From Plumapathes pennacea (taxonomy: Eukaryota; Cnidaria; Anthozoa; Antipatharia; Myriopathidae): DNA of 64,000 nt. Shown piece after piece: positions 29,301 to 56,775 of the stretch (positions are counted from its first letter, which is position 1; every line of letters starts with the position of its first letter). Location of the stretch: NCBI GenBank assembly GCA_964036295.1, contig OZ038473.1:14869862-14933861 (forward strand), given 5' to 3'. The notes under the pieces were generated by a model that worked only from the letters and a program-made list of their open reading frames with translations, ran no database searches and was not told the DNA's origin. The position numbers and the translations under genes were made by a program.

Positions 29301-30983
29301 CTACTCAAACACGCTTTCAAAATGCAGGAAATGCTATCTCAGGAGACAGAAATCTTAAACATTTTTGCGGGAGACAATCGCCCGGACCCCGCTAATCTCC
29401 TCAAGTCTACCGAGCTCCCAAAATCCCGTACTATTCCGCCCTAACAGGATCGCAATCACCGCACAAAACATATATATAAGATCTAAGACGAATGATGAAC
29501 TTTTCTATGCATTTTATGTTGGTGAAGCCTTCAGAATACACAGCAAATACTACTGAAACATGCTCTCCAAATGCAAAAAAAAATCTATTTCAGAAGACCC
29601 GGGGGACCATTCCCTAGCCCCTAACCTGTTCGAGTCTCCAGCGCTTCGCAATGTCCCTTCTATTTAGCGCTAACGGGATCGCAACCGCCACACGTAACAT
29701 ATACACAAGATAGAGAACGAATAATCAACTTTCCTATGCATTTTATGTTGGTGAAGCCATCAGATTACACTGCACAAACTACACAAACACGCTTTCACAA
29801 TGCAGGAAATGCTATCTCAGGAGACAGAAATCTTAAACATTTTGCGGGAGACAATCGCCCGGACCCCGCTAATCTGCTCAAGCCTACCGAGCTCGCAAAT
29901 TCCCGTACTATTCCGCCCTACAGGATCGAAATCACCCCACAAAACATATATATAAGATCCAAGACGAATGATGAACTTTACTATGCATTTTATGTTGGTG
30001 AAGCCTGCAGAATACACAGCAAATACTATTGAAACATGCTCTCCAAATGCAAAACAAATTCTATTTCAGAAGACCCGGGGGACCATTCCCTGGCCCCTAA
30101 CCTGTTCGAGTCTCCGGCGCTTCCCAATGTCCCTTCTATTTAGCGGTAACGGGATCGCAACCGCCACACGTAACATATACACAAGATACAAAACGAATAA
30201 TCAACTTTCCTATGCATTTTATGCTGGTGAAGCCTTCAGATTACACTGCACAAACTACTCAAACACGCTTTCAAAATGCAGGAAATGCTATCTCAGGAGA
30301 CAGAAATCTTAAACATTTTTGCGGGAGACAATCGCCCGGACCCCGCTAATCTCCTCAAGTCTACCGAGCTCCCAAAATCCCGTACTATTCCGCCCTAACA
30401 GGATCGAAATCACCGCACAAAACATATATATAAGATCCAAGACGAATGATGAACTTTTCTATGCATTTTATGTTGGTGAAGCCTTCAGAATACACAGCAA
30501 ATACTACTGAAACATGCTCTCCAAATGCAAAAAAAAATCTATTTCAGAAGACCCGGGGGACCATTCCCTAGCCCCTAACCTGTTCGAGTCTCCAGCGCTT
30601 CGCAATGTCCCTTCTATTTAGCGCTAACGGGATCGCAACCGCCACACGTAACATATACACAAGATAGAGAACGAATAATCAACTTTCCTATGCATTTTAT
30701 GTTGGTGAAGCCATCAGATTACACTGCACAAACTACACAAACACGCTTTCAAAATGCAGGAAATGCTATCTCAGGAGACAGAAATCTTAAACATTTTGCG
30801 GGAGACAATCGCCCGGACCCCGCTAATCTGCTCAAGCCTACCGAGCTCGCAAATTCCCGTACTATTCCGCCCTACAGGATCGAAATCACCGCACAAAACA
30901 TATATATAAGATCTAAGACGAATGATGAACTTTACTATGCATTTTATGTTGGTGAAGCCTGCAGAATACACAGCAAATACTAT
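23356..30983 (+). repeat. Tandem pair of a 3,814-bp higher-order unit (8 dimers each)
   Basis: The segment 23,356-27,169 is repeated immediately as 27,170-30,983. The same ordered series of rare variants occurs in both: agaatatacagc at 24,288 and 28,102, acaaaatgaataat at 24,468 and 28,282, ggcgctgggcaatg at 24,871 and 28,685, and tttcacaatgc at 25,980 and 29,794. By eye I found only two differences between the copies: tcacttct against tcccttct at 23,932/27,746, and actgttcc against actattcc at 24,188/28,002. Outside these limits neighbouring dimers no longer correspond. Confidence 0.85.
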
Positions 30984-47487: not shown

Positions 47488-48190
47488 CCAGTCTCCCCTA
47501 AGTTGTAAGCTGTTCTTTGTTTAGGAAACAATAGATATTTGGCTATCCAAAACAGTCAATTATAGACTGGATCCACTCTAGTTGAAATTAAAAGTTGCAC
47601 TTACTGAATAATGGCAAACAATTCAATTTTTTTATCACAATAAATTAAGAGCGTATGCACTGTCAAATAATCAGAGCATAGTCTTGTTTCAATCCATGTT
47701 GCAAACAGAAACTAGTGAAAAATGCCAATTATCTGATTCCCCTCCATAATGGGCAAATTTCACCCCTTAGTGCTGTCAGCATAAAAGCCCTGCAGTAAAC
47801 ATATTCAAGTTGTAGGATCCCCAAATCTCTATGATACCATATGCATTTTATTTGGCTGTTGTGGAATTTGTCAAAGAGGCCTTGAAATGCTCTGGTTTTC
47901 CCCTCCGTACCATTACCAAATACTGTAGAATGACCCATATATCTACACTGAAAATCATTGTGCATGACAGGGTGGACATCCAGATTTGTAGGCAAGTAGG
48001 CTTTACAGAAGACACAAGCCCTACCGTCAGTTATAGCAGCTCAGTTATAAATAGTTGGTTCAGTTTTGTTTGGCAGATTTAAATTGCATGCAATAGCCAC
48101 CTCTGGTTTCAGTTATTGAAAGCCTGATCAAGCTAGGCAGCCAGTAGTAAGCAAATTCATTTTGTGCGAAGACGCTGCACAACTTTTTTT
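47488..48190. repeat. Satellite-edge flank: deletion-collapsed copy of 50,350-52,705
   Basis: From about 47,513 to 47,945 the sequence matches 50,350-50,812 closely (start tttgtttaggaaacaatag, end gacccatatatctac). From about 47,948 to 48,190 it matches 52,466-52,705 (start ctgaaaat(c/t)(a/g)ttgtgcatgac, end gacgctgcacaac). The intervening 1.65 kb of the fuller copy, which carries three candidate exons, is absent here. Small length differences also occur near 47,705 and 47,875. No intact coding frame is supported in this stretch. Confidence 0.85.
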
Positions 48191-48760
48191 ATGAAAGACC
48201 TAGCTAAAAGATTGTTCCAGCTCGTAACATCATGCTGAGGAAGTCGTTTTGTGAATGAAAGGTTCTCATTTCCAGGCTTTAAAACGACAACAAAATTTAG
48301 ACCTTAATCCATAACCATCTGTACAGTCATGCTTTGAATAATAATTATTCAGGAATTGCTGGCCCTGTGTTGCGGAAAAGTCATTGATTGAAGTTATATA
48401 TATCCTAGGTTAATACGACAGACATGTGCATTGCACAGTGATTGGCACAGCTGTGTCACCAAGCAAATTATGCAGTTGCTATATAATATTAGACAATGTT
48501 ATTTCTTGTAATCGAACCTTCAGTACTTGACACTGAATGAAAAATTATGGATTTCAATAAATGCTTGAGAATGACCAAAACCTGTTCACCGAGAACTGCA
48601 TATAATATTGTAACATTATTGCATTATAGACTTCACACACTTTCTGCAGCCCAGATTCCTAGTGATATGTGCACCCCCCAAACACTGGTGATATGAAAAA
48701 TTATATGCATAAATTGCTTGCAAAACACTCGAGTTAGACTTAGACTGTAGCAGGTGGTTC
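48191..48760. other. AT-rich stretch without recognised gene
   Basis: I see no splice-bounded open frame, RNA gene or repeat here. If the minus-strand first exon at 48,854 is real, this is the beginning of its first intron. Confidence 0.4.
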
Positions 48761-48853
48761 TATTTAGTGGAACTCCGACACAACGAGCTGCCAACGGGCT
48801 GGGAAAGTGTGTTTGTTATAGAAAAGGGATCGATACAAAAATCGCCAGCTTAC

Positions 48854-49018
48854 CTTGGGTCGAAGTCGGGCTCCTTGAACGCAATTTGCGGCTTCCTGCA
48901 CTACGTACGTCTTCTGTACGGGACCACACGAAGCGCTTGGCGCAGTTTGCATAAAGGCAAAGGTGGATTGAATGGATAACACGAGCGTTGAAACTGTAAC
49001 CACTAACGCAAACGCCAT
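48854..49018 (-). CDS. First coding exon of an unrecognised secreted protein (5' partial gene)
   Basis: Reading the minus strand, the ATG at 49,018 lies in a strong initiation context (aaaacaATGG) and opens a 55-codon frame. The frame begins with a hydrophobic, signal-peptide-like segment (MAFALVVTVSTLVLSIQSTF, then an Ala-containing cleavage region). The mature part seen here is short, with two cysteines (residues about 22 and 34 of the mature chain) and a basic end, ARLRPK. The frame stops being open to purpose exactly at a consensus donor, AAG|GTAAGC, with exon end at 48,854 and intron phase 0. An upstream in-frame ATG at 49,039 adds 7 residues (MRVNIKT) but has a weaker context. CpG-rich sequence at 49,020-49,330 fits a promoter. 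Later exons must lie to the left, possibly beyond the satellite array, and I could not identify them. The family is not recognised. Confidence 0.55.
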
Positions 49019-49039
49019 TGTTTTTATATTAACACGCAT

Positions 49040-49340
49040 GCGCACAGAGCAGACTGCTGACCGCGTACACACTGGATCGCAGCCGCGCGATCGCGTGACT
49101 TCGACGGCTAGTGAATGAAAGATGGGCTTTCAATCGCGTTTTGGCTAATTCTTTGTCTTTGGGGGCAGGTGGCGTGTGAGAGCTTGAGCAAACGTGTGCT
49201 AGACGCAATCACGGCAATTTAGTGTCGCAGATCTGGAGTGTTTGAGCGAGCAAGACCGGAAAACAGACAGGCCCTGGCCCTGACGAACAGCGCTGTCTTG
49301 AGCGCTCACCGTTGAGTGTGCCCGCATGGTCGGCAAGTGT
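49040..49340 (-). promoter_or_regulatory. Probable promoter/5' UTR region of the minus-strand secreted-protein exon
   Basis: This stretch is distinctly richer in G, C and CpG than the AT-rich DNA on both sides, with gcgcgatcgcgtgac near 49,083. It lies immediately upstream, on the minus strand, of the signal-peptide exon. No clear TATA box was found. The assignment rests on position and composition only. Confidence 0.35.
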
Positions 49341-49597
49341 CAGTTACGCGTGGCCTTTTTTATGTCTGTTTTTTTTTTAGCCGTTGCGCACGCTATACTT
49401 TTTGGACGCGAAATAATCAAGTTCGCAGTCAAGTTTCGGAATGACAGTTAACTTGCAGCATGGGTTTTTAAGGTCGCCCACGAAGTGGGGCACCGTAATG
49501 TAACATCCAGTCCCAATAATAATAAATAATAAATATTGTATCCATATGTATATAAAAATATTGCACATGAAACACTGTGTGAACAAAAGCAGCTTAG

Positions 49598-49836
49598 TTT
49601 ATTGAATAAAAGATGTCATCACTTCTTGTTTTTTTCAATCAATCAATCAATCAACCTTTATTTATACACGATAAAAGTTTAAAGCTACAGCTTGTGTGGT
49701 CGTGTGACCACTCCCACAAGTCTTGTACAGCCTGAAAGTTAAACAAGTGCGGCGTCAGTAATAACACCAAACCAGGATCAAAGTTTGAAAATCAACTCAA
49801 AGTCAATGTGGAAAAGCTGAACAACTGAGCTGCAGC
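49598..49836 (-). CDS. Candidate terminal exon and 3' end of the minus-strand multi-exon gene
   Basis: Two acceptors give alternative last exons in phase 0. The first, at 49,836 after gtccatacag, gives 15 codons (AAAQLFSFSTLTLS, stop at 49,792). The second, at 49,731 after gtttaactttcag, gives 27 codons starting AVQDLWEWSHDH with a stop at 49,651. A canonical AATAAA lies at 49,603-49,598 on the minus strand, about 50 nt past the second stop. Another AATAAA lies inside the second open frame. The second version overlaps the probable retroelement tail and may be an exonised repeat, so the choice between the two is open. Both keep the frame of the upstream exon ending MTEEK. Confidence 0.4.
49636..49740 (-). 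mobile_element. Probable 3' end of a non-LTR retroelement (hairpin plus TTGA tail)
   Basis: On the minus strand, the hairpin gtggtc-acac-gaccac (about 49,697-49,712) is followed by tataaataaagg and then by a short tandem (TTGA)n tract, seen on the plus strand as (tcaa)n at 49,636-49,655. A conserved stem-loop followed by a short tandem repeat is the usual 3' terminus of CR1/L2-like LINEs and the SINEs that use them. No reverse transcriptase sequence is present, so this is at most a 5'-truncated copy. It overlaps one of the two possible terminal exons of the minus-strand gene. Confidence 0.4.
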
Positions 49837-49973
49837 CTGTATGGACATGCAAAGCCAAAATATTTCCAATTTTTCTTTAATAAAAAAGGGGGTTCCAATT
49901 TTTTACTTCTTTAATAAAAAAAGGGTAATACAATTATATAAAGTTACATCATATGCATGCACTAAGGCCTTAC

Positions 49974-50045
49974 CTTTTCTTCAGTCATTTTATACGACTT
50001 CATGAAGTTCTTGAACTTTTCCATCGTCTTTGGCAAGAATGGAGA
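49974..50045 (-). CDS. Candidate internal exon, 24 codons, phase 0-0
   Basis: On the minus strand, an acceptor (tatttcccttag) is followed by 72 nt with an open phase-0 frame, SPFLPKTMEKFKNFMKSYKM then TEEK, and a consensus donor AAG|GTAAGG. The peptide is lysine- and phenylalanine-rich with amphipathic spacing (MEKFKNFMKSYK). The other two frames are less protein-like. This is one of the best-supported exons of the locus, because both splice sites and the frame agree with its neighbours. Function is unknown. Confidence 0.5.
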
Positions 50046-50212
50046 CTAAGGGAAATATGTTAAAGGCTTGTTATTACAACGAAACATCCAAAGAAGGTAT
50101 TGCGAGGGGACTCAACATGTTTAAATATTGCAATTTACTCAAAATGTATGGGTATTGTAGATCTTCTAGTAATGGTTGGATAAGACTCCTCCTGTTATCT
50201 GGACATAAGTAC

Positions 50213-50264
50213 TTTAAAGAACTCAAATAAAATCTGAATATTATCCTTGGTAAAAGTGAACAAA
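50213..50264 (-). CDS. Possible alternative exon, 52 nt, phase 2-0
   Basis: A strong polypyrimidine acceptor (ttatctttttcatgtag) precedes 52 nt that are open in the phase-2 frame (LFTFTKDNIQILFEFFK) and end at a weak donor AAA|GTACTT. In phase 0 the stretch has a TAA after 7 codons, so it can only be used if the preceding exon ends in phase 2. That holds for the alternative frame of the 50,829-50,898 exon, which ends ..MPVIL plus AG. In the preferred model it is skipped. Confidence 0.25.
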
Positions 50265-50349
50265 CTACATGAAAAAGATAATGTTAGATCTGCAATAAAA
50301 AAAAGGGCAGAACAAGGACAAACTCTTACAGCAGGTTCCATGTTATGCC

Positions 50350-50812
50350 TCTTTGTTTAGGAAACAATAGATATTTGGCTATCCAAAACACTGTCAATTA
50401 TAGACTGGATCCACTCTAGTTGAAATTAAAAGTTGCACTTACTGAATAATGGCAAACAATTCAATTTTTTTATCGCAATAAATTAATAGCATATGCACTG
50501 TCAAATAATCAGAGCATACTCTTGTTTCAATCCATGCTGCAAACTCAGAGAAATTTGAGAGCAAAAAGAAACTAGTGAAAAATGCCAATTATCTGATTCC
50601 CCTCCATAACGGGCAAATTTCACCCCTTAGTGCTGCCAGCATAAAAGCCCTGCAGTAAACATATTCAAGTTGTAGCATCCCCAAATCTCTATGATACCAT
50701 ATGCATTTTATTTGGCTGTTGTGGAATTTGTCAAATTTTGAGGCCCTGAAATGCTCTGATTTCCCCCTCCGTACCATTACCAAATACTGTAGAATGACCC
50801 ATATATCTACAA
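50350..50812. repeat. Low-copy segment shared with 47,513-47,945
   Basis: The two segments align over their whole length with few differences, for example aaaacactgtcaatt here against aaaacagtcaatt at 47,548, and an extra 23 bp (tcagagaaatttgagagcaaa..) here near 50,546. The segment is intronic to the candidate minus-strand gene. I see no supported exon in it. Confidence 0.85.
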
Positions 50813-50828
50813 CAAGGTATATACACAC

Positions 50829-50898
50829 CTTAATATGACAGGCATCACTAACTTGGTACCTGGCATATATGTTCCAGTCAAGCCAACCAGGCCAGACC
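50829..50898 (-). CDS. Candidate exon, block copy 1 (70 nt), frame ambiguous
   Basis: An acceptor (aattatttattctgcag) and a donor AAG|GTGTGT bound 70 nt. Entered in phase 2, as the preceding exon requires, it reads VWPGWLDWNIYARYQVSDAC then HIK and leaves in phase 0, matching the exon at 49,974. Entered in phase 1 it reads SGLVGLTGTYMPGTKLVMPV then IL and leaves in phase 2. The homologous exon in block copy 2 lacks 10 bp (ctggcctggt) and reads VGLTGTYMPGTKLFMPVIL from the same phase-2 entry. The two copies therefore encode different peptides over most of their length, and one of them has been frameshifted. Confidence 0.4.
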
Positions 50899-51529
50899 CT
50901 GCAGAATAAATAATTTATTAGTGTTTCTATCCAATATTTTACAAAATAACACAATGTGAGCAAAATTCAAATATTTGGAGATGACAAAAATAAAATGTCT
51001 TCAATTTCCAGTTTGGGAATTAGTTCTAAAATGAAACCTTTCCACTACTTAGCATGGCCAACATGGATGTGGAAATGTGTTAATTGTCTGACAGTGGACA
51101 ATAAGGCAAGACAATTTAACAGCAACTGCATGAATCTGTGCCTGGCTGCAAAAAGTGACAACACTTGAGACAAGTATAAGCCATGCAGTGAAACAGGGCT
51201 AAACTCATCTAGGTTAAATGGTGAAATTATTGCTTAATAAAAAAAGAGGCATAAAGCAGACTGTCTTGCACTTTTCAATATCATGTATACATGCCATCAA
51301 CTGCAGACAAAATTTTGGGACACTTGCTAAATGTTGATAATTTCTATATATTTTCTAGTACGAAAGACCACCCCCCCCCCCCCATTTCCCAAATTCAATT
51401 GTTCCAATGTTTCAGATTTCTAACCATAACCCTAACCCTATCCACAACAAGGTACCTGTATATACACACCTTAATATGACAAGCATCATAGTTGTTCTGC
51501 AATCATTAGGTAATCACAGCAAACTGTAC

Positions 51530-51561
51530 CAAGCAAGAACACCAGCATCTGTAATTTCTTC
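51530..51561 (-). CDS. Candidate exon, block copy 1 (32 nt), EEITDAGVLA
   Basis: The acceptor ctctttctgtgtaatttgcag is followed by a phase-0 frame EEITDAGVLA plus TG, ending at GCTTG|GTACAG in phase 2. The next G completes a Trp codon. Reading through the donor reaches a TGA five codons later. The homologous position in block copy 2 is TGG, so the longer 92-nt version (donor AAG|GTGTGT) is closed here but open there. Related exons exist at 55,390, 58,139 and 59,455. Confidence 0.4.
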
Positions 51562-52221
51562 CTGCAAATTACACAGAAAGAGGTCAAGGTTAATAATAGC
51601 ACAACCACACAAAAATGGTCAAATTTACTGATTAATGTAAATCTTCTAATAACTCATACAAGGTTATATTTCTGAAATATCCCCTTCTCCATTTAGTCTG
51701 TTATGAGAGCCAAATTTGCACAGAAACCTGCAAACCACTGCATGTGATACTTGGTGATATAATGTTGCACTGCACTATATGTTTCTCATGTGGATATTTT
51801 AAAGTAACCCTAACCCTAAAAATATTATGACTCCAAGTATCATCCAATAGATGACAATCTATATATGCAGCTGAATTCCCCAACTTTTCAAGCATCTAAA
51901 TTAATTACACATTAAAGTCTTGCTAACAAGACTAAAGCCAGGCTATACACAAAATTCACTCAATTCTAGGGGCACTTTGCTAAGTAAAATTTTCAAAAGA
52001 AGTTATTAGCGTGCATTGCAGACAGAACTAACACCCACTAAGTCTGACTGAGATAAGAAACAAAACTGTGTGCCAGGACCCCCCATCATCATTGCAGGAG
52101 TACATACAAATTATAATTCTGGTTGGCTTGATTGAAATGAGACTTGAGACTGGTCTCCTCCTCTCTGTTTAAAAATATATCATGAAGCATGTAATGCATA
52201 CCATTTGATTCAATTGCTTAC

Positions 52222-52258
52222 CTCTGCATACAAGGACAGAAACAAGTTAGACCAAAAC
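52222..52258 (-). CDS. Candidate exon, block copy 1 (37 nt), FWSNLFLSLYAE
   Basis: On the minus strand, a pyrimidine-rich acceptor ending actgttgccag precedes 37 nt. Entered in phase 2, these read FWSNLFLSLYAE and end at GCAGAG|GTAAGC, a consensus donor, in phase 0. The other two entry phases meet stops or are less plausible. Together with the next exon (EEITDAGVLAW) it makes an L..LYAEEEITDAGVLAW pattern. This faintly recalls the helix pair in W2-type HEAT domains of translation factors, but the match is too short to assign. Confidence 0.45.
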
Positions 52259-52912
52259 CTGGCAACAGTATAAAAAAAAATTAAAGTTGAGCATTTAGAC
52301 CTCACAACTTTAGGAGCAACTGGTGAGAAGAAACTATTGATTGGTACTTGACAGAAGCTGCCTTGAGTAAGGCCTTTGAAAAATATGTAACCCCACCAGC
52401 TGCAATTGGGTCAACTTTAAGTCAACAGGCCCTGCATGGTTACTGTTATTTTGATCAATTAACCTGAAAATTGTTGTGCATGACAGAGTGGACATCCAGA
52501 TTTGTATATAAGTAGGCTTTATGGAAGACACAAGCCCTACCGTCAGTTGTAGCAGCTCAGTTATAAATAGTTGGTTCAGTTTTGTTTGGCAGATTTAAAT
52601 TGCATGCAATAGCCACCTCTGGTTTCAGTTATTCAAAGCCTGATCAAGCGAGGCAGCCAGTAGTAAGCAAATTCATTTTGTGCCAAGACGCTGCACAACT
52701 TTTTTATTAATAACATGCATACAATAATTTACGGCATGCATTTTTATTAAATTTTGTTACAATTCACAAGTGCCTCTTAAGAACTTTGTTTTCTCGTAAA
52801 CAGAATCAGAATTGTCTTGAGGAATGAAAACACACTTTCTGCCAGCTATCATTAATATTGCTACTCTTAATTTCACAATTATGCAACTGTTTGGAATAAA
52901 TTGACATGTGGC

Positions 52913-53087
52913 ATGTTACTAATAGCAAAATAGTATTGAATGCAGGAATTATTGTATGCATGTTACTAATAGCAAAATAGTATTGAATGCAGGAATTATT
53001 GTATGCATGTTATTAATAGCAAAATAGTATTGAATGCAGGAATTATTGTATGCATGTTATTAATAACAAAATAGTATTGAATGCAGT
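52913..53087. repeat. 47-bp minisatellite, about 3.7 units
   Basis: Unit starts (atgtta(c/t)taatagc) fall at 52,913, 52,960, 53,007 and 53,054, exactly 47 bp apart, with near-identical units containing aaaatagtattgaatgcagg. The last unit is truncated. It lies in the intron just downstream (minus strand) of the 21-nt candidate exon. Confidence 0.95.
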
Positions 53088-53113
53088 TTTAGTAGTGTAC
53101 TGATCAGACTTAC

Positions 53114-53134
53114 CTTCTCTCAATCTCAATAAAT
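53114..53134 (-). CDS. Candidate microexon, 21 nt, FIEIER
   Basis: Acceptor cctttatccacag and a perfect donor AAG|GTAAGT bound 21 nt. Entered in phase 2 it reads (Q)FIEIER plus AG and leaves in phase 2, which is what the FWSNLF exon needs. A microexon this short is only credible because both splice sites are strong and the phases on both sides agree. Confidence 0.4.
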
Positions 53135-53360
53135 CTGTGGATAAAGGAATGCATGTTTACAATGATGGCCAATAAAATGTCAACTAAGGCACCAAAACCA
53201 AGATAGCGATTTGATGTAAGTAAACTTTATATAGAGAAATCTAAACAGAGTGGGTATACATGGTAATTACAGTTTTGAATGAGATTGAGAAGACAAAAAA
53301 CCACTCAGAAAACATTCATAATATGACATGTGACTAAAATAATAACATGAAAGTACTCAC

Positions 53361-53404
53361 TGTTGATTCATTCCAGTCACAAAATTAAACAACTGCTTGA
53401 ACTG
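53361..53404 (-). CDS. Candidate exon, 44 nt, QFKQLFNFVTGMNQ
   Basis: A long T-tract acceptor (about 14 T, then catgtag) and a consensus donor CA|GTGAGT bound 44 nt. The stretch is open only in phase 0 (QFKQLFNFVTGMNQ plus CA); the other two phases hit stops. It leaves in phase 2, matching the next microexon, and converts the phase-0 chain of upstream exons into the phase-2 chain downstream. Confidence 0.5.
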
Positions 53405-53504
53405 CTACATGAAAAAAAAAAAAAAGTTCTTTAGTTAATTATTCTATAAATACAGCCATCTCCCATAGGGCAGGAGAACCTCTGGGATGTTGGAATGTGG
53501 GCAC

Positions 53505-53725
53505 TACATATATCTTTAAGATACAAAATGAATAATGATTTTTTCTATATGTGTAATGTTGATGAAGCCTTTAGATTTCATACAAAAATACTAAAACACA
53601 CTCTCAAAATGCAGTAAATGCCACTTCAGAAGACACATTTATTTTAATTTTCCCAGATGAGCATGCCCCCAGACCCCCTAGCTGCTCAAGCCTCTGGATC
53701 TTGTAAATCACCCTATTATTAACCT
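53505..53725 (+). repeat. Solitary diverged relative of the satellite half-unit
   Basis: The order of landmarks is that of the array: acatatat..aagatac, then aaaatgaataatga, then ctatatgtgtaatgttgatg, aagcctttagattt, acacactctcaaaatgcag, cttcagaagaca, cccccagaccccctagctgc, tcaagcctctgga and finally gtaaatcaccctattatt..aac. Each piece matches array sequence such as gaagccttcagatt, cgctttcaaaatgcagg and gctaatctgctcaagcc with many substitutions. It has the A-type length after cagaagac but B-type cagaagac itself. Confidence 0.8.
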
Positions 53726-53756
53726 CCAACAAGGTTGGAATGCCTGCGCTAATTAA

Positions 53757-53940
53757 GAAATATATAACGCGTCACCGTGTAATATAACCTCATCTAAACA
53801 TGCAGGAAGTTGGGAGAACACGAGAGTAGTGTAAGGAAACCACAAGGCTGCCGAGTGGTTTCCGGCACTACTCGAGTGTTCTCCCAACTTCCCAAGTGTT
53901 TAGATGAGGCTATATTACACGGTGACGCGTTATATATTTC
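53757..53940. mobile_element. Foldback palindrome, arms about 86 bp, loop 11 bp (MITE-like)
   Basis: The left arm from gaaatatataacgcgtcacc is the inverted complement of the right arm ending ggtgacgcgttatatatttc, apart from a few mismatches. The pairing continues inward to ggaaaccac (53,835-53,843) and gtggtttcc (53,855-53,863) around an 11-bp loop. A degenerate direct copy of the terminal motif, gtaatata(c/a)(t/c)ctcatcta, occurs just outside at 53,990-54,012. There is no open frame. A non-autonomous DNA transposon with long inverted repeats is the simplest reading. The family is not identified. Confidence 0.75.
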
Positions 53941-54041
53941 TTTTATAAAATAATTAGCTAAGTAAAAAACATCGCGTATCACGTCAGCATGTAATATACT
54001 CTCATCTAACATGGTTACTTAGCCAATCAGGACGCGCGTAG

Positions 54042-54325
54042 GAGGCAGGTGTGGCCAAGCGGTTAGGGCGCCGGACTTGAAATCCGGAGGTCCCAGGTCT
54101 GACCACTAGCTGAATTTGCAACACGGTAGCCCTGAGTTCAAATCCTTGGCCACACTTTGTAAATAGCCAACTGGTTAGCCTCCGACCAGTTGGGATTCTT
54201 AACACATTTGTGTTCAGTTTATGATATTTGGTTTCTGCATTTCAAGTCTCCCCAATTAGCACGGCAAGTGCTAAATACATTGCGACTTAAATAAAGTGAT
54301 TTATTTTATTATTTATTTATTTAAA
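54042..54325 (+). mobile_element. SINE with tRNA-Ser(UGA)-derived head
   Basis: The head (54,049-54,155) begins gtgtggcc and ends ggccacac, an 8-bp perfect terminal stem. It has a polymerase III A box (tggccaagcggttagg), an intact anticodon arm (ccgga-cttgaaa-tccgg, 54,071-54,087) with a UGA anticodon, and a B box (gagttcaaatcc, 54,134-54,145). About 45 nt separate the anticodon and T arms, and the T stem pairs poorly, so this is not a functional tRNA. A body follows (ccaactggttagcctccgac, accagttgggattcttaac), with an AT-rich tail ending tattatttatttattta near 54,325. No target-site duplication is evident. Confidence 0.75.
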
Positions 54326-54569: not shown

Positions 54570-55389
54570 CTGCAGAATAAATAATTTATTAGTGTTTCTA
54601 TCCAATATTTTACAAAATAATACTTGTGTGTGTGTCTGTGTACCAAATTGTTATAATTTCAATTTGTGACGCAACAAATTAAACCAGTGATTAGAAAATG
54701 TGGTTTGAATTTCTGACGAAACAAATGCTTGCCTACTTGTTAGCCATCATTAGTCCAGCCCGTGACTTGTATACAGGTACTTAAATACAGTGCTGGAAAT
54801 CGTGACTGATATGGTCCCCAAGTACAATGTGAGCAAAATTAAAATATTTGGAGATGACAAAAATAAAATGTCTCCAATTTCCAGTTTGGGAATTAGTTCT
54901 AAAATGAAACCTTTCCACTACTTAGCATGGCCAACATGGATGTGGAAATGTGTTAATTGTCTGACAGTGGACAATAAGGCAAGACAATTTAACAGCAACT
55001 GCATGAATCTGTGCCTGGCTGCAAAAAGTGACAACACTTGAGACAAGTATAAGCCATGCAGTGAAACAGGGCTAAACTCATCTAGGTTAAATGGTGAAAT
55101 TATTGCTTAATAGAAAAAGAGGCATAAAGCAGACTGTCTTGCAATATCATGTATACATGCCATCAACTGCAGACAAAATTTTGGGACACTTGCTAAATGT
55201 TGATAATTTCTATATATTTTCTAGTAAGAAAGGCCACCCCCCCATTTCCCAAATTAAATTGTTCCAATGTTTCAGATTTCTAACCATAACCCTAACCCTA
55301 TCCACAACAAGGTACCTGTATATACACACCTTAATATGACAAGCATCATAGTTGTTCTACAATCATTAGATAACCACAGCAAACTGTAC

Positions 55390-55421
55390 CAAGCAAGAAC
55401 ACCAGCATCTGTAATTTCTTC
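55390..55421 (-). pseudogene. Block copy 2 of the EEITDAGVLA exon
   Basis: The acceptor, peptide and donor GCTTG|GTACAG are identical to those of the copy at 51,530. Unlike that copy, the frame stays open past the donor (TGG instead of TGA) for a 92-nt version ending at AAG|GTGTGT. It cannot be joined in frame to the phase-0 microexons upstream, because the exon before it (56,082) needs phase-2 entry. It is therefore a silent, alternative or mis-spliced copy in the preferred model. Confidence 0.4.
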
Positions 55422-56081
55422 CTGCAAATTACACAGAAAGAGGTCAAGGTTAATAATAGCACAACCACACAAAAATGGTCAAATTTACTGATTAATGTAA
55501 ATCTTCTAATAACTCATACAAGGTCATATTTCTGAAATATCCCCTCCTCCATTTAGTCTGTTATGAGAGCCAAATTTGCACAGAAACCTACAAACCACTG
55601 CATGTGATACTTGGTGATATAATGTTGCACTGTACAGTATGTTTCTCATGTGGATATTTTAAAGTAACCCTAACCCTAAAAACATTATGACTCCAAGTAT
55701 CATCCAATAGATGACAATCTATATATGCAGCTGAATTTCCCAACTTTTCAAGCATCTAAATTAATTACACATTAAAGTCTTGCTAACAAGACTAAAGCCA
55801 GGCTATACACAAAATTCACTCAATTCTAGGGACACTTTGCTAAGTAAAATTTTCAAAAGAAGTTATTAGCGTGCATTGCAGACAGAACTAACACCCACTA
55901 AGTCTGACTGAGATAAGAAACAAAACTGTGTGCCAGGACCCCCCATCATCATTGCAGGAGTACATACAAATTATAATTCTGGTTGGCTTGATTGAAATGA
56001 GACTTGAGACTGGTCTCCTCCTCTCTGTTTAAAAATATATCATGAAGCATGTAATGCATACCATTTGATTCAATTGCTTAC

Positions 56082-56118
56082 CTCTGCATACAAGGATAGA
56101 AACAAGTTAGACCAAAAC
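56082..56118 (-). pseudogene. Block copy 2 of the FWSNLFLSLYAE exon
   Basis: 37 nt with the same acceptor and donor as 52,222-52,258. One synonymous difference (CTA for CTG) leaves the peptide unchanged. Entry from the phase-0 DTEKKGAPK exon would meet TAA after three codons. Entry in phase 2 is open. Confidence 0.4.
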
Positions 56119-56338
56119 CTGGCAAAGGTATAAAAAAAATTAAAGTTGAGCATTTAGACCTCACAACTTTAGGAGCAACTGGTGAGAAGAAACTATTGAT
56201 TGGTACTTGACAGAAGCTGCCTTGAGTAAGGCCTTTGAAAAATATGTAACCCCACCAGCTGCAATTGGGTCAACTTTAAGTCAACAGGCCCTGCATGGTT
56301 ACTGTTATTTTGATCAATTAACCTGAAAATTGTTGTGC

Positions 56339-56775
56339 ACCAGGGGGTTACCGCAAGATAAATACTACCACATGTGAATCTAAAAATATGTTAATATTAA
56401 CCCCTAACATGACAGCTTTTTAACATACTTTAAACTAAAACAGAGAAGTTACTGCAAGTATGCAATGTAATATTAAAAATGTGTCACACCTGGTTTTTAT
56501 GCTGGCCATTCATCTGCCATATTGTACAGACAATAATTTAAAGCTACCATTTTGCTCTCCAGCCATGCCAAGAACCTCCGACTAGCAATTTCTGCTTTCA
56601 TATTAATGCATAACCTTGGCATAAATAATGTACAGACATAAACTACTAGGTTACTTGGGTTAAGGGAACCCTTCATTGGCTTTACAGGAGGTTCAGTGAC
56701 ACTGCAGTAAGACCATTGCCATCAAGAATTTAAATGTAATAAAATAATATCTCACTGTCATGTACATGCATGTAC
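56339..56775. other. Intronic-looking AT-rich stretch
   Basis: No supported exon, repeat or RNA gene was seen between the end of the segmental duplication and the next microexon. Confidence 0.4.

Follow-up and report, generated by a model that had tools for sequence, protein, structure and literature searches.

Our data indicate that a diverged half-unit lying about 6 kb beyond the edge of a satellite array in Plumapathes pennacea is very probably a relic of an earlier generation of that same subtelomeric satellite, the decayed remainder of an older array. The DNA analysed here (the window) is the terminal 64 kb of contig C12, up to base 14,933,861, in an assembly of 24 contigs and 290 Mb. 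An earlier note, made from the letters of the window alone, had described the lone half-unit as a single-copy member of an older dispersed family. The following features of the window bear on its origin:

1-47506, plus strand: homogenised subtelomeric satellite array of half-units A (249 bp) and B (228 bp) in a 476-bp dimer (TRF, consensus comparison).
47507-53470, unstranded: subtelomeric spacer common to other chromosome ends, including the segment 50951-52480 (comparison of chromosome ends).
53471-53500, plus strand: tail of unit 0 of the old run, truncated upstream; 30/30 bases equal to C12:14843379-14843408.
53501-53746, plus strand: lone half-unit, unit 1 of the older tandem run (profile matches, alignment to the inboard run on C12).
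53747-53755, plus strand: first bases of unit 2 (alignment to C12:14843632 onward).
53750-54041, unstranded: MITE-like hairpin element of ~290 bp, a long inverted repeat, which interrupts the run (sequence search).
54041-54300, plus strand: tRNA-derived SINE-like element (sequence search; tRNA likeness read by eye).
54824-56339, unstranded: second copy of a 1.5-kb segment, distal to the lone unit (self-comparison).

The array in the window is the distal portion of a longer one that starts ~1.3 kb upstream of the window, near C12:14868574. Aligned over 226 columns, the consensus sequences of A and B share 78% identity, and array units match their own consensus at ~97% identity on average. From the array edge at 47506 to the lone half-unit is 5,994 bp. 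The right end of C9, which is the counterpart of the window's end, terminates in TTAGGG repeats, which places the window's DNA in a subtelomere; at the right contig end of C12, within the window, a TTAGGG run of three is absent, whereas C9 right has many. A 50-bp tandem repeat lies close to this contig end (62746-63893). We also considered a centromeric satellite, which is unlikely because array-type units are present at both ends of C9, C10 and C12.

Several of these ends have features of their own. The C12 left array (C12:29320-36299) has a higher-order period, with an odd A-like unit every 1,683 bases (at 29320, 31003, 32686, 34369 and 36052). Array-edge units at C10 left (C10:46338-47069) and C9 right (C9:17325214-17325941) are near-identical on the two chromosomes and have diverged from core units of either type. 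The first 7,500 bases of C12 left and of C10 left, and the first 1,500 of C6, are N, possibly representing masked, withheld or unassembled ends. Elsewhere in the assembly, a mitochondrial contig of 17,711 bp carries a cox1 match in three pieces, as if split by an intron (C24:4485-8372), beside which cox3 and the terminal part of the large rRNA can be read by eye, a gene order that suggests a hexacoral.

We searched the 16.5 kb distal to the array with A and B profiles built from the window's array units alone. The lone half-unit scored 85.1 bits with the A profile (E 3e-26, match 53513-53741) and 72.0 bits with the B profile (E 3e-22, match 53502-53738), against maxima of 9.8 (A) and 7.7 (B) bits in 100 dinucleotide-preserving shuffles of the same 16.5 kb. 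No second significant copy was found there by profile search; the runner-up among real matches had E 1.3. Pairwise alignment scores of 137 and 83 likewise stood above every one of 200 simple shuffles (maxima 25 and 32). The similarity to A and B is thus significant over the full length, and the half-unit belongs to the satellite family of the window's array. It lies on the same strand as the array and is 65-69% identical to sampled array units over aligned columns. Its landmarks are in order, and its length of ~246 bp is A-like (A 249, B 228) while it also carries CAGAAGAC, the B-type motif, just as the earlier note had described. That note placed the half-unit at 53,505-53,725; it is indeed there, but its bounds are 53501-53746, and homology to an older locus spans 53471-53755.

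That older locus shows where the half-unit came from. About 80 kb inboard, C12:14843287-14844030 holds part of one unit (unit 0), two further units (1 and 2) and part of a fourth (unit 3) in tandem. Window positions 53471-53755 align to C12:14843379-14843640 at 95.3% identity over 258 columns, and both unit junctions are collinear. The similarity continues outside the run: upstream, window 52704-53473 matches the inboard locus piecewise at 88-92%, and window 56620-57101 matches farther along it at 89%. The lone half-unit therefore began as unit 1 in a tandem series that numbered four units or more (0-3). The window's version of this series breaks off within the first bases of unit 2, where the hairpin element starts; the exact junction is uncertain because the last few unit 2 bases overlap the start of that element.

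The right end of C10 preserves the same run in another form. There, a chimera of units 1 and 2, internally shortened, is followed by the start of unit 3. Among 28 diagnostic sites, the chimera is of unit-1 type at the first 10/10 and of unit-2 type at the next 18/18. The ~187 bases of spacer upstream of it are identical to those of the window save for a difference in poly-A length. The window and C10 right versions are thus different decay products of one tandem run. With junctions on both sides collinear with the run of four whole or partial units, the lone copy has what is expected of a diverged copy left outside a homogenised array from a tandem run. Its edges are parts of the adjacent units, and fragments of those units on both flanks would not be expected of a transposed single copy.

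The elements that now adjoin the run are widespread. The hairpin element (53750-54041) and the SINE-like element (54041-54300) stand back to back. At least 33 copies of the hairpin element lie elsewhere at 93-94% identity, the other 7 of the best 40 among 2,123 candidates being at the lone locus; the SINE-like element likewise has at least 33 copies elsewhere, at 90-94%, among 40 scored candidates. ARAGORN found no tRNA in the SINE-like element at 54041-54300.

To place the lone half-unit in time, we gathered 475 units (at least 141 profile positions each) from the window and from fetched stretches, and built trees from 54 of them: 13 A and 13 B units taken from seven stretches by random sampling, together with 28 further units. 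The trees left aside the remaining A and B units, units shorter than 175 bases, and the unclassified units of nine stretches; these last comprise variants from the arrays, duplicates of units at array edges, and the lone unit's copies on C11 and C10, which are near-identical to retained ones. In the whole-unit tree, the lone half-unit falls inside an old clade of 15 rows without any A or B row (support 100/99), while A, B and five intermediate units lie together on one side of a branch (98/93). Trees of the two halves place it in a 15-row set, again free of A and B rows, both for the 5′ half (99/97) and for the 3′ half (99/96).

These trees bear directly on the possibility of a recent escape, in which a unit of A or B type left the present array and merely appears old. 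The array is only 6 kb away and on the same strand, as such an origin would have it. We constrained the lone copy and its C12-left twin to join A together with three A-like units, or alternatively to join B, and the AU test rejected both placements (A, p 3e-8; B, p 6e-5); each was also rejected in the 5′ half and in the 3′ half separately. The lone half-unit is thus a member of neither type, and its 65-69% identity to sampled array units compares with a figure of ~97% for array units against their respective consensus. An origin by escape from the array, the outcome that would have overturned the earlier note's reading of the copy as old, is refuted by the AU tests, and we consider it barely conceivable.

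The trees further support the view that the lone half-unit predates the A/B split, provided that the root lies outside A and B; they were rooted by midpoint, within the satellite family. The greater age proposed in the earlier note accordingly gains support from the trees and from the two characters described below, and remains conditional on that root. Grouping just the 26 core A and B rows as a clade was rejected in the 3′ half (p 0.003) and not in the 5′ half (p 0.09), so the A/B split itself is blurred, probably by array-edge intermediate units that fall among the core rows. A single tree carries no model of recombination, though chimeric units show that recombination has occurred.

Two characters separate the A and B types, and we scored both in all but 8 of the 475 units, which were not scorable. 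A segment of ~18 bp that B lacks is present in every A unit (213/213) and in 44/47 units classed as neither, and is absent from 206/207 B units (1 unclear). The motif CAGAAGAC occurs in 188/207 B units, in 1/213 A units and in 13/47 unclassed units, and CAGGAGAC in 191/213 A units and 13/47 unclassed units. Twelve of the 47 unclassed units combine the segment with an exact CAGAAGAC; by sequence, these include the four lone copies scored. Several old copies have still other letters at the motif position. On the simplest reading, whose polarity depends on the same midpoint root, the ancestral unit would be the long form with CAGAAGAC, followed by a change of motif in the A line and loss of the segment in the B line. 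The combination of A length and B motif in the lone copy would then most simply represent retained ancestral states, and the idea in the earlier note that the mixture dates from before the split fits this well. We considered an A/B recombinant that took its length from A and its motif from B; this origin is unneeded because the segment and CAGAAGAC occur together in other old copies.

A genome search revealed that the lone unit, which the earlier note had taken to be single-copy, has at least six further copies at 99% identity: at the left ends of C12, C11 and C10, at either end of C9, and in C6 at 20.37 Mb. Five of these six lie near chromosome ends and one, on C6, is interior. The copies are part of a subtelomeric block that has been duplicated: starting at the array edge and moving outward, the spacer is 92-99% identical in its main blocks at C12 left, C11 left, C10 left and C9 right, and is also common to C9 left and C7 left, as judged from two partial queries. 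The distance from array to lone unit is 5,994 bp at C12 right, 5,154 bp at C12 left, 4,831 bp at C11 left, 4,827 bp at C10 left and 4,862 bp at C9 right. Copy counts across the genome are lower bounds, as they come from best-scoring candidates.

Some stretches of related sequence stand apart from this block. Within C6:20366700-20380500, compared in parts, array units, spacer and lone unit form a subtelomere-like block ~3.0 Mb from the end of C6. There are no N bases in C6:20378000-20380500 and no TTAGGG or CCCTAA run of three in the final 2,470 bases of C6. Fusion of chromosomes, translocation of an end or a join made in scaffolding could each explain this interior block. Window positions 48026-48820 have relatives at 79% identity, with equal scores, at C8:7221-7996, C4:27.164 Mb and C2:37.906 Mb; judging from sequence, these are perhaps a second type of subtelomeric block.

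Near-identity at seven places could also mean that the lone unit is a conserved functional element of the subtelomere, such as a boundary or binding site, held by selection at many ends. The surrounding spacer is about equally conserved (92-99% in main blocks), however, and the C10 right version is chimeric and internally shortened. The C7 left stretch (C7:17900-20200), moreover, contains the 1.5-kb segment a single time and lacks the lone unit, which makes a conserved function unlikely. In the window, this segment occurs twice around the lone unit, at 50951-52480 and 54824-56339, the two copies being 97.7% alike; C7 left has either lost the lone unit through recombination between the 1.5-kb repeats or kept an arrangement without it. 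We regard selection for such an element as very improbable, and our data indicate no function for the lone half-unit.

Old copies of the family are more widely scattered than the lone unit itself. Near C12 right they lie at 14.827, 14.843, 14.859 and 14.860 Mb; others are at 164 kb on C12, 42-44 kb and 19.63 Mb on C7, 118 kb on C3, and 21.2-22.9 Mb on C6. Since further old copies lie in chromosome interiors (C12 at 4.07 Mb, at least four in tandem; C1 at 25.2 Mb, two; C5 at 16.4 Mb, one partial), the older generation is not confined to subtelomeres. Excluding the lone loci, 17/20 old loci whose sequence was compared have at least two neighbouring copies or parts, a rough count in that most stretches covered are short and some of the 17, being duplicated from one another, are not independent. 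At the other 3/20, one copy or fragment is seen: at C10 right, at C5 and, as a 47-base piece, at 14.8545 Mb on C12. Members of the older family are mainly short tandem runs.

These loci also weigh on the possibility that a dispersed, singly inserted family came first and that the satellite was amplified from one of its copies, leaving the lone copy as a surviving relative of the founder. The position of the lone copy as older than the A/B split in the trees is compatible with such a founder, as are the few old copies in chromosome interiors. Yet what borders the lone copy on each side is part of an adjacent unit and not a target site, and adjacent copies or parts are the rule at the old loci (17/20). 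We therefore consider a dispersed founder unlikely. The older dispersed family invoked in the earlier note gives way here to a tandem one: the edges of the lone copy are those of a tandem run, and that run survives at C12:14843287-14844030.

We favour a history in which the lone half-unit is a relic of the older tandem satellite. An older run would have been left outside the homogenised array when the A/B dimer arose and expanded. No longer corrected through unequal exchange and gene conversion, it would then have decayed. What is left of it in the window is unit 1 between the end of unit 0 and the beginning of unit 2, and at C10 right a fused unit 1/2. The lone unit would have been carried passively among chromosome ends by ectopic exchange of the spacer. 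Four units of the older run are visible, and it may formerly have been a long homogenised array. The assembly thus brings together probable ancestral states, a remnant of the older run and two of its decay products, making the lone unit a checkable case of a dimeric satellite arising from an older one.

The replacement process itself is well known from other satellites, and the phenomenon is an ordinary one of known kind. Among the literature matches listed, no paper describes a comparable satellite in a cnidarian, as judged by title or the start of the abstract. Subtelomeric satellites with exchange between chromosome ends form a known general class, and the system described here resembles them in having an array some kilobases inside the telomere and a spacer duplicated between ends. 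A more tentative idea, which we put forward as somewhat less probable than not, is that subtelomeric satellite generations in this animal have been replaced in waves, each newcomer displacing its predecessor to both flanks, with layers of differing age persisting there and being traded between chromosomes, in a stratigraphy like that of alpha satellite but located at chromosome ends instead of centromeres. In the account of primate alpha satellite by Shepelev et al. (2009; PMC2729386), older layers flank the homogenised centromeric arrays and are common to non-homologous chromosomes. Here, too, a young homogenised multimeric array is flanked by older, diverged copies of its family, and two scenarios in that account, "segment cut off" and "interchromosomal transfer/amplification", are both compatible with the lone unit. 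Unlike alpha satellite, the array here is subtelomeric and the relic runs are only a few units long; the likeness described here is one of organisation.
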